In this document: piece by piece, positions 61,538 through 63,922 of the stretch
Layout of the letters: each line of letters begins with the position of its first letter
How positions within the stretch are numbered: position 1 is the stretch's first letter
Source: Cryobacterium sp. BB307
GTDB taxonomy: Bacteria; Actinomycetota; Actinomycetes; Actinomycetales; Microbacteriaceae
Assembly: GCF_012274275.1 (NCBI RefSeq)
Contig: NZ_JAANZA010000001.1
Location: 310,001-374,000 of the forward strand
Reading direction: 5' to 3'
Length of the DNA: 64,000 nucleotides
Program-made: the position numbers and the translations under genes
Notes under the pieces: generated by a model
What the model was told of the DNA's origin: nothing
The model's database searches: none
What the model saw: the letters and a program-made list of their open reading frames with translations, nothing else

Positions 61538-62173
61538 ATGCGAGTCCACGTTGCCGACCATCCGCTAATCACCCACAAGCTCACGGTGCTGAGGGACAAG
61601 AACACACCGTCGCCAACGTTTCGGGCTCTCACCGAGGAGCTGGTCACGCTGCTCGCCTATGAGGCGACCCGCCAGGTGCGTGTCGAGCCGGTGCAGATCG
61701 AAACGCCCGTCTCTGCGACGACCGGACTCGCCATCGCCAACCCGCGGCCGCTTGTCGTGCCGATCCTGCGCGCCGGGCTCGGGATGCTCGAGGGCATGGT
61801 GAAGCTGGTCCCCACCGCCGAGGTCGGCTTCCTCGGCATGGTGCGCGACGAGGAGACGCTGCAGCCGGCGATCTACGCCGAGCGCCTGCCTGAGGACCTC
61901 TCCAACCGCCAGTGCTTCGTGCTCGACCCCATGCTCGCCACCGGCGGATCGCTGCTGGCCGCCATCGAGTACCTGTTCGAGCGCGGCGCGGTGGACGTCA
62001 CCGCGATCTGCCTGATCGCCGCACCGGAGGGACTCGAGGCGGTCGAGAAGGCCACGGAGGGCCGCGAGGTCACCATCGTGCTGGGCGCGCTCGACGAACG
62101 CCTCAACGAGCACGCCTACATCGTGCCCGGCCTCGGCGACGCGGGCGACCGCCTGTACGGCACGGTCGGCTGA
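61538..62173 (+). CDS. upp: Uracil phosphoribosyltransferase
   Basis: This 211-residue enzyme salvages uracil to UMP with PRPP. It has the start [30 protein letters not shown], the PRPP motif [15 protein letters not shown] and the C-terminal uracil-binding [16 protein letters not shown]. The length is normal. A consensus promoter for the cysteine-rich leader ORF begins two bases after its stop. Confidence 0.96.
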
Positions 62174-62174
62174 T

Positions 62175-62205
62175 TTGACAGCCGTCGCGCCCCGCCGCGT
62201 ATGAT
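62175..62205 (+). promoter_or_regulatory. Consensus promoter giving a leaderless cysteine-rich ORF
   Basis: TTGACA (62175-62180), a 19-bp spacer and TATGAT (62200-62205) form the best promoter in the window. The ATG of the following ORF is six bases after the -10, so transcription should start at the A of the ATG and the ORF is translated without a leader. Confidence 0.85.
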
Positions 62206-62211
62206 TCCGGT

Positions 62212-62313
62212 ATGACTCTGAACGCGCACACCCTGACCTCCCGCGAGGCCTCTTGGGTTGCCGGCACCATGATGCCGGTCAGTGCGGTCATGTGTTGTCG
62301 AATGTGTGCCTAA
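62212..62313 (+). CDS. Leaderless 33-codon cysteine-rich leader peptide
   Basis: This 33-codon ORF starts MTLNAHTLTSREASW, continues VAGTMMPVSAV and ends MCCRMCA-stop. Three of its last seven codons are Cys, just before the stop. Position, leaderless start and clustered Cys codons match the cysteine-responsive attenuator ORFs described in mycobacteria, where ribosome stalling at Cys codons controls the downstream gene. Here the next gene is the winged-helix regulator at 62486, 172 bases on. Inverted repeats in between could be the switching structures. Confidence 0.75.
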   Translation: MTLNAHTLTSREASWVAGTMMPVSAVMCCRMCA

Positions 62314-62327
62314 CGGCTTCCTTCGCC

Positions 62328-62361
62328 GAACTGCACTCCTGAAACAGTGAGTTTGCAGTTC
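62328..62361 (+). promoter_or_regulatory. Inverted repeats in the leader of the winged-helix gene
   Basis: GAACTGCA (62328-62335) and TGCAGTTC (62354-62361) are perfect arms. Overlapping them is a short CGGC/GCCG stem (62314-62328), and further on GAAGGC and GCCTTC (about 62410-62440). They fill the 172-base leader between the cysteine peptide and the regulator and could form alternative hairpins in an attenuation mechanism. No other feature is visible in this stretch. Confidence 0.5.
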
Positions 62362-62485
62362 CCGGATGCCGGCCCTCATCCCGGTCGTTCATCCGTCACA
62401 CGCGCAACACGAAGGCATTAACTCCTCATTAGAGGCCTTCACCTCATGGCCCTCTCGGGCACTCGCTACACAAGGACTTCCTTCA

Positions 62486-63190
62486 ATGTCTCTCGCAACC
62501 CTTGACCGACCCATCTCCCCTATACGTCCCGTCGAAGCCGCACCGGCTCGGCCGGCAGCACCGCACGTCCGGCCGGTGCCGGAAGGCACTGAGGCGCGCG
62601 GCTTCGTGCTGTACGTCGGGCTCGACGAAGCCGGCGCAGCAGCATCCGGAATCGAGCTGAGCCAGCTCGTCACCGCGCTCAAGAACCTCACCGCGGAACT
62701 CGCTCCCCGCGCGCAGACTCACGCTGCAGTGGCGCTCGCACCACGTGGTGCCGGTGGCCGCGACGTCGATGTCGTGCGGCTCGCGCTGCAGGACCCGTCA
62801 GCACTTGCGAAGTTCCGCCAGCAGGACACCGTCGAGGAGGACGAGAAGCCGATCGACGAGGGCGTCATCGTCGACCTGTCGCGTAAGCGGGTGACGATCG
62901 ACGGTGAGGTCGCGCCGCTCACGTTCAAGGAGTACGAGCTGCTGCAGTTCCTGGTGTTGCGCGTCGGCAAGACGGTCGCCCGCTCCGAGCTGATCGCGGG
63001 TCTGTGGCGCGCCGGCGACGATGACGCACCGAACGAGCGCACGATCGACGTGCACGTGCGTCGGCTGCGCGCCAAGCTCGGCGGCTACGAGGACATCGTG
63101 CGGACCGTGCGCGGCGTCGGCTACCGGTTCGACCGGCACGCGGATGTCTCGCTGCGCCACGCCACGACACGCTCGCCCGACGCCTTCTGA
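62486..63190 (+). CDS. Winged-helix (OmpR-type) regulator without receiver
   Basis: This 234-residue protein has a proline/alanine-rich start, a domain of unknown type (about 35-120: GFVLYVGLDEAG, GIELSQLVTALKNL, HAAVALAPRG) and a C-terminal OmpR/PhoB winged helix (about 130-222: VTIDGEVAPLTFKEYELLQFLV in part, NERTIDVHVRRLRAKLG, IVRTVRGVGYRF). No phosphoacceptor receiver is present, so it must sense by another route. ATG 62486 has AAGGA eight bases upstream. Control by the Cys leader suggests a role when cysteine is scarce. Confidence 0.88.
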   Translation: MSLATLDRPISPIRPVEAAPARPAAPHVRPVPEGTEARGFVLYVGLDEAGAAASGIELSQLVTALKNLTAELAPRAQTHAAVALAPRGAGGRDVDVVRLALQDPSALAKFRQQDTVEEDEKPIDEGVIVDLSRKRVTIDGEVAPLTFKEYELLQFLVLRVGKTVARSELIAGLWRAGDDDAPNERTIDVHVRRLRAKLGGYEDIVRTVRGVGYRFDRHADVSLRHATTRSPDAF

Positions 63191-63250: not shown

Positions 63251-63294
63251 TAACGAAAAGGTAACTAGCGTTCGTTACCGGTCCGTTATATAGT
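63251..63294 (+). promoter_or_regulatory. Promoter with nested inverted repeats
   Basis: TAACGAA (63251-63257) and TTCGTTA (63271-63277) are perfect arms, as are GGTAAC (63260-63265) and GTTACC (63274-63279). Ten bases downstream stands TATAGT (63289-63294), a good -10. The repeats occupy the -35 region, where no consensus hexamer is seen, so an activator or repressor probably binds here. Confidence 0.55.
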
Positions 63295-63300
63295 CGGTCT

Positions 63301-63405
63301 CAGCAGGAATTGTTTGCTGTGGCAGTTCTTGCGGAATGTGATTGCAGGACACTCTTGGTGCAAGGGAAGAGGGCCCGTCGCTAGCCTCTGCGACGGGCCC
63401 TCAAT
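63301..63405 (+). ncRNA. Candidate small RNA ending in a strong terminator
   Basis: A transcript from the TATAGT at 63289 would run about 100 bases with no ribosome site or ORF and end at the perfect hairpin AGGGCCCGTCGC (63370-63381), TAGCCTCT, GCGACGGGCCCT (63390-63401). The next gene starts 57 bases later with its own ribosome site. Alternatively this is the 5' leader of the MarR gene or simply the terminator of the winged-helix gene. Confidence 0.35.
63370..63401 (+). terminator. Perfect 12-bp stem terminator
   Basis: AGGGCCCGTCGC and GCGACGGGCCCT are fully complementary around an 8-base loop, followed by TCAATCCGTT. It ends whatever is transcribed from the winged-helix gene or from the promoter at 63289. 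Confidence 0.8.
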
Positions 63406-63457
63406 CCGTTAACACCCTCTTCTTGTTTGTAAGGTGGATCGCACGAAGGGGGTCGAC

Positions 63458-63922
63458 ATGAGCGACGCGGCCTTGGCGGTCGACGCGTGGGAGTCACTGT
63501 TCCGCACGCAGGTCGTCGTGATGCGCCAACTGACGGCCGAGTTCCCCTCCGGTGAAGTCACGATGGGCGACTACGACGCGCTGTTCACGCTGTCGCGGGC
63601 CGAGAACCGGCGGCTGAGGATCAAGAACCTCGCTGAGAACATGCTCCTCACCCAGCCAAGTGTGAGCAGGCTGATCGAGCGGCTCGCCTCCCGCGGCCTG
63701 GTCAACAAGCTGCCTGACCCTGAGGACGGCCGCGGCGTGATCGTCGAGCTGACCCCGCACGGCTACGACGTTTTCCGGCGCGCTGCGGTGCGTCACATGG
63801 AGGGCATCGTGTCGAGGCTCACCTCGGCGCTGAGCGCTGACGAGTTGCGCCAGCTGACCGAGCTGACCACCAAGCTGCGCGCATCCGTTTCCGGGCATAC
63901 GAGCCCGGATGCCGCGGACTAG
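63458..63922 (+). CDS. MarR-family transcriptional regulator
   Basis: This 154-residue winged-helix protein has RIKNLAENMLLTQPSVSRLIERLASRGLV as recognition region (quoted: NLAENMLLTQPSVSRLIERL) and the wing LPDPEDGRGVIVELTPHGYDVF. The dimerising N- and C-terminal helices are typical. ATG 63458 was chosen over a GTG eight codons upstream because AAGGGGG stands six bases before it. Its target and ligand are unknown. Its stop overlaps the stop of the convergent partial gene. Confidence 0.92.
   Translation: MSDAALAVDAWESLFRTQVVVMRQLTAEFPSGEVTMGDYDALFTLSRAENRRLRIKNLAENMLLTQPSVSRLIERLASRGLVNKLPDPEDGRGVIVELTPHGYDVFRRAAVRHMEGIVSRLTSALSADELRQLTELTTKLRASVSGHTSPDAAD

Follow-up and report, generated by a model that had tools for sequence, protein, structure and literature searches.

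A 33-codon open-reading frame that lies between upp and the gene for a winged-helix regulator in Cryobacterium sp. BB307 is, in our best reading of the sequence, probably a leader peptide that responds to cysteine and methionine and turns on a sulfur-starvation regulator. The locus belongs to a 64,000-nucleotide stretch of DNA, which is called the window here. An initial annotation had described a promoter, an ATG just beyond it, the 33-codon frame, inverted repeats and a regulator gene with its own ribosome site, and direct reading confirmed every one of these features (Table 1). The promoter begins 2 nt past the stop codon of upp, which is an upstream neighbour and outside the switch proper; TATGAT is followed after 6 nt by the leader ATG at 62212, and the leader stop is separated from the regulator ATG at 62486 by 172 nt containing inverted repeats. 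Across the 101 loci with a defined regulator start, this interval measures 129–286 nt, with a median of 183. A generic promoter scan, which takes spacers of 16–18 only, did not list the leader promoter, whose spacer is 19. No terminator-like site was found in a scan for intrinsic terminators between 61500 and 63200 of the window, Rfam returned no match at E ≤ 1 between 61500 and 64000, and none of 26 leaders matched an NCBIfam family at E ≤ 1.

Table 1 Features of the upp–leader–regulator region and its downstream flank, in window coordinates
Feature	Position	Strand	Remarks
upp, uracil phosphoribosyltransferase	61538–62173	+	Pfam UPRTase; NCBIfam upp above cut-off
Promoter TTGACA-19-TATGAT	62175–62205	+	TTGACA 62175–62180, TATGAT 62200–62205; read directly
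Putatively leaderless leader ORF, MTLNAHTLTSREASWVAGTMMPVSAVMCCRMCA and stop	62212–62313	+	33 codons, ending CCRMCA; TAA 62311–62313
Inverted repeat within leader, over Met codons	62261–62278	+	CCGGCACCA/TGATGCCGG
Control codons TGT TGT CGA ATG TGT	62293–62307	+	Cys Cys Arg Met Cys; CGA 62299–62301
Inverted repeat past leader stop	62328–62361	+	Arms 62328–62335/62354–62361
Second post-leader inverted repeat	62363–62395	+	Arms 62363–62368/62390–62395
Stretch predicted to pair with Cys codons	62397–62410	+	Pair probability up to 0.81
Hairpin GAAGGC...GCCTTC, 5′ of ribosome site	62411–62440	+	Arms 62411–62416/62435–62440
Shine-Dalgarno AAGGA of regulator	62472–62476	+	Read directly
Receiver-less winged-helix regulator	62486–63190	+	234 aa; no Cys, no Met beyond start
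Structured RNA element	63285–63412	+	95 nt past regulator stop; fold z −5.2
MarR-family gene	63434–63922	+	Downstream of regulator

The leader was followed through the Microbacteriaceae by gathering loci in two ways, via the regulator and via a leader profile search. Every regulator-collected locus reaching that far (38 of 38) carries an orthologous leader with like promoter geometry before an orthologous regulator; two of these loci repeat a genome already counted, and one further locus, L035, ends before the leader position. Because the same frame and geometry recur at all 38, the pairing of leader and regulator is not a matter of chance, and the leader first noticed in the window is real and correctly described. 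Among 139 leader loci, the regulator stands on the same strand in 137 (124 of 126 after identical leaders were removed), the remaining two, L098 and L166, sitting at contig ends. This count excludes three weak profile matches outside the family (L114–L116, from the order sample, E 0.002–0.007), which were rejected as chance matches. The leader profile matches 258 of 299 Microbacteriaceae genomes at a lenient E ≤ 1, with matches unchecked one by one, and the regulator is present at E ≤ 1e-40 in 289 of the 299. Taken together, these sequence comparisons indicate that leader and regulator are a real pair across the family. Among the papers listed by a literature search, to which most subscription papers were closed, none concerns either.

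Judged by promoter geometry, translation of the leader would begin right at the mRNA 5′ end. When spacings of 3–12 nt between the −10 box and the ATG were tried, the best −10-like hexamer ended 5–8 nt 5′ of the ATG in 123 of 125 leaders, with TTGAC present upstream in 119 and with C or T as the base preceding the ATG in 123. A Shine-Dalgarno-like sequence precedes 7 of the 125 leaders, whereas the regulator has one in 86 of 101 relatives. Conservation of the distance between −10 box and start had been proposed as a test of the leaderless arrangement, which this result supports; a 5′ end far upstream of the ATG, which would contradict it, is not what the geometry indicates. In some relatives (e.g. 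L009, L017 and L041, noted by eye and uncounted), the −10 box falls inside an inverted repeat, TGCAAGATAGTTGCA or TGCAAGAAACTTGCA, and other relatives have different arms at this place, CTCAGT/ACTGAG (compare 62190–62212 of the window). This repeat is a possible operator.

The terminal codons were counted in 126 non-redundant leaders, that of the window included. Cysteine is found in 114 leaders at the first terminal position, in 122 at the second and in 115 at the third; 107 leaders have all three of these cysteines, 122 have one or more and four have none, so that the clustering of Cys codons towards the 3′ end of the frame that marks polycysteine attenuators is also found here (CCRMC in the window). 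The four leaders without terminal Cys (L022, L024, L025 and L036, from Microcella and Yonghaparkia) are among the 38 regulator-collected loci, and L030, another strain under the species name of L036, keeps two terminal cysteines. At the first two positions TGT is commoner than TGC; the upp genes of the same loci contain 24 TGT and 224 TGC. Methionine is enriched along with cysteine, the last 15 codons holding a mean of 7.1 Met and Cys together, indicating that the leader end is biased to both amino acids. The codon of Arg30 is CGA in all 126 leaders, including the four that have no terminal Cys, and the Met that follows it is kept in 122. CGA is a slowly decoded codon and makes up 4% of the Arg codons in the regulator genes. 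By these counts the most invariant element of the leader is the codon CGA, usually as CGA-ATG, rather than the Cys codons, and counting Cys codons does not account for it, a point against the switch that we favor. The initial annotation had called the frame a cysteine-codon leader and had staked that on conservation in relatives; the claim passed because the terminal Cys codons are indeed conserved across the Microbacteriaceae, but the bias has to be amended to Cys plus Met, CGA is more constant than either, and four leaders lack all three terminal Cys. Thus the anatomy and the general idea were right and the Cys-only bias was not.

Diverged relatives retain much of this arrangement. Thirty genomes were chosen for a diverged regulator or a weak leader match, 29 from the Microbacteriaceae and one from a sister family, and 27 of them contain a leader-like frame, 24 with CGA-ATG kept (one of these, L199, was read by eye). 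In the most-changed leaders, Cys and Met codons are often retained or multiplied, and several appear to have re-made the bias (MCMCMCMCR, MCACRMCCCC, CCRMCCC, MACCRMCCC, CTRMCCCN), while some diverged leaders retain a single terminal Cys. No leader was found in the other three (L196, L198, L201), in which the regulator is present. Two further families of the order sample also contain the regulator at E ≤ 1e-40, the total being 53 of 297 genomes with the Microbacteriaceae included. Eight loci of one such sister family, found via the regulator, were inspected, and five (L171, L258, L259, L261, L262) have a CGAATG end, which in four cases belongs to a frame ending CCRMHA or CCRRMQA; it is absent from L256, L257 and L260. 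These ends suggest that the leader core may be older than the Microbacteriaceae.

The regulator has one Pfam match, Trans_reg_C (PF00486; residues 141–215, 70.3 bits against a cut-off of 26.2), the Pfam search revealed no receiver family, and the 25 NCBIfam matches listed, out of 37, all start at residue 107 or later. This is consistent with the receiver-less winged-helix protein that had been proposed. Profile searches of the PDB gave 8hml, 8hig and 8hih as best matches, which we take to be GlnR, and an AlphaFold model has a mean pLDDT of 66.3 with a weak N-terminal part. In a Microcella-like group (L016, L019, L026–L031), the reading frame of the regulator continues without a stop far upstream and includes an in-frame ATG, which may give the protein an N-terminal extension.

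The regulator is also nearly sulfur-free, which, like the invariant CGA, goes beyond the initial annotation; both are surprising. The cores of 123 orthologues, 24,078 residues in all, contain 1 Cys and 3 Met; 98 of 101 full-length regulators have no internal Met, and among 23 regulators without a defined start, 2 have one outside the core. In a comparison of variable hydrophobic columns from the same 56 genomes, Met accounts for 1 of 1372 residues in the regulator versus 11 of 1261 in Upp; a Upp protein contains on average 5.9 Met and 2.3 Cys. In the genus, 23 paralogous winged helices have 35 Met and 0 Cys in 2300 residues, so the absence of Cys within the winged helix itself is uninformative, and the complete frames of these paralogues, 5023 residues together, include 90 Met and 35 Cys. 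The probability of a Met- and Cys-free protein of this length in one genome is about 0.01, and a few other ORFs of the window approach it. The composition is therefore mildly unusual for any one genome and draws its weight from conservation among sequences that are related and not independent.

Two further features lie downstream of the regulator. The structured RNA element of Table 1 recurs as similar DNA at 66 loci (54 once known duplicates are removed) and shows compensatory changes at 20 of 31 predicted pairs among 33 aligned sequences, a nearly invariant core, GTGATTGCAGGACACTCTTGGTGCAAGG, and a strong GC hairpin at its end. No Rfam family matched it near a gathering score, and it is probably an undescribed small RNA; its linkage to the regulator is biased because the loci were chosen by that neighbouring gene. 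Frames similar to the MarR-family gene of the window were seen in the 2.5 kb examined at 10 of 30 loci.

RNA folding bears on how a stalled ribosome might act. In a sample of 60 of the 92 full-length leaders, codons 16–28 and 5–17 fold more stably than synonymous recodings and codons 1–13, 9–21, 19–31 and 21–33 less stably. Since the Met run lies inside the inverted repeat of the leader and codons 16–28 are stably folded, some of the conservation of Met may be structural; one stem pair of this repeat is GC in 73, AT in 4 and CG in 3 of 93 sequences. The predicted pairing of the Cys codons in the window would form a helix, which would be opened by a stalled ribosome; conservation of this helix was not seen in the genus alignment (8 sequences), where a hairpin similar to GAAGGC...GCCTTC is present. 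Predicted pairing between the leader end and the native ribosome site is stronger than pairing with shuffled sites (p = 3e-6, n = 101). The energies are −13.07 kcal/mol for native, −12.26 for swapped and −11.10 for shuffled partners, indicating that part of the signal is not partner-specific. In 29 of 101 loci, that of the window not among them, the ribosome site contains TTCGAC, the complement of GTCGAA in the leader, against 0.84 expected from shuffling, and once these 29 are dropped the pairing becomes borderline (p = 0.05). Pairing with TTCGAC was rejected as a general explanation for the constancy of CGA because CGA persists although TTCGAC is missing from 72 of the 101 sites. When a stalled ribosome was included in a folding model, the ribosome site was not consistently unmasked (n = 101, p = 0.26), and the listed part of the RNAalifold output for alignments of five groups contained no masking structure common to the groups. 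Such masking is thus a plausible step in some lineages, unproven in general.

The sulfur physiology of the family was assessed from the PAPS/APS-reductase-type family PF01507, which was found in none of 8 genus genomes, in 15 of 100 Microbacteriaceae genomes and in 14 of the 91 that are at least 90% complete, with 14 of 14 controls positive. As far as this one family tells, most Microbacteriaceae would need reduced sulfur.

Read from the leaderless geometry, conservation and codon bias of the leader, its linkage to the regulator, the sulfur-free composition of the latter and the scarce sulfate-reduction gene, the following course of events would be expected. The near-consensus promoter would give an mRNA starting at or beside the leader AUG, and ribosomes would translate the leader without a Shine-Dalgarno site. 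We infer that tRNA charging is the signal and that starvation turns the system on: when cysteinyl-tRNA, and probably methionyl-tRNA too, is scarce, the ribosome would stall over the terminal M-C-C-R(CGA)-M-C and block pairing of the leader end with downstream RNA, so that the regulator is made, either by unmasking of its ribosome site or by prevention of Rho-dependent termination. The regulator could still be made in sulfur starvation because its need for sulfur amino acids is close to zero, and, since it is a winged-helix protein without a receiver, a sulfur-scavenging regulon would respond to its dose.

Other readings of the same leader were weighed against this one. If the nascent peptide were itself the sensor, an arrest motif ending in C-R-M-C could respond to a metabolite or to redox state, CGA providing an inbuilt pause, and the constancy of Arg (126 of 126) and of the following Met, the exclusive use of CGA and the retention of CGA-ATG in 24 of 27 diverged leaders would all fit; but the choice of codon is invisible to a peptide, the upstream peptide varies, with 25- and 27-residue versions that lack the MMMP block, and the MCMCMCMCR and MMMCCSMML leaders are without the motif, so that we consider this unlikely. 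That TGTCGAATGTG is a nucleic-acid site, either an operator of the regulator or an RNA-processing site with the Cys codons as by-product, would explain why CGA stays in leaders without terminal Cys and why CGAATG recurs at sister-family loci (5 of 8). This idea we find highly improbable, as the exact site occurs once in the genome of the window, where the 11-base leader core has 1 exact match and 44 one-mismatch matches, as L205 and L207 lose the site yet stay rich in Cys and Met, and as promoter and reading frame are conserved too.

The product of the frame might instead be a stable small protein, binding a metal or thiol and acting in trans, as three terminal cysteines occurring together in 107 leaders could suggest. 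Leaders with one or zero terminal Cys exist, the folding stability of parts of the leader departs from that of synonymous recodings, and the linkage to one downstream gene is constant (38 of the loci having been collected by that gene), so we give this very little credence. Scarcely credible is a non-specific leaderless uORF whose sole role is to bring ribosomes to the next gene: PMC4633059 describes small leaderless ORFs as frequent upstream of mycobacterial genes, but an interval of at least 129 nt is long for reinitiation and the strong Met and Cys codon bias speaks against it.

As a Cys/Met-responsive leader, the frame would resemble in kind the mycobacterial leaderless polycysteine attenuators, as these are presented in PMC4633059 and, for Canestrari 2020, through PMC13236596 and PMC9094748; common to both are a leaderless short ORF, Cys codons at its 3′ end and a regulated gene beyond an interval. 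Unlike those attenuators, the leader described here has a winged-helix regulator as its target, Met joining Cys, an invariant CGA and a home in another family. No downstream sulfur or cysteine operon was identified, the target being Trans_reg_C and MarR the only family identified among ORFs further downstream, which were clustered in relatives. A regulator as the target of a leaderless Cys ORF may nevertheless have a precedent in Rv0485, which we take to be a regulator gene. Fig. 7B of Shell 2015 (PMC4633059) places a cysteine-enriched leaderless ORF before Rv0485, there termed hypothetical. Seliverstov 2005 (PMC1262725) reports Cys leaders before cys operons of Mycobacterium and P. acnes and before cbs of B. 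longum, and the leaders reported there share with ours a short ORF, runs of Cys codons near the stop, the lack of a conserved terminator and a proposed role of Rho, but precede amino-acid genes only, whereas ours precedes a regulator gene. As in trp-type attenuators, the leader peptide contains codons of the amino acid that would be sensed; unlike in these, the window region scanned has no intrinsic terminator. The regulator shares a C-terminal winged helix with OmpR/PhoB response regulators and the orphan GlnR and differs from them in having no receiver domain and an N-terminal domain of no assigned fold. Cyanobacterial phycobiliproteins are sulfur-sparing proteins made in sulfur starvation, and the regulator is like such proteins in that a protein required under sulfur scarcity is stripped of Cys and Met, although here the protein is a transcription factor and not a bulk protein.

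In its strongest form, the proposal would be a family-wide master switch for sulfur starvation, with a leader that reads Cys and Met, CGA-AUG as an obligatory pause in ribosome timing and a sulfur-free transcription factor, a form we hold tentatively and with more doubt than belief. If the Cys/Met-responsive leader is real, the Microbacteriaceae, which in the sample searched mostly lack the usual PAPS/APS reductase gene, would gain a defined regulator of sulfur starvation equipped with a sensor of its own, attenuation would govern a regulon and not one pathway, and the invariant CGA would provide a clean test case for a slow codon as a required part of a leader-peptide sensor.
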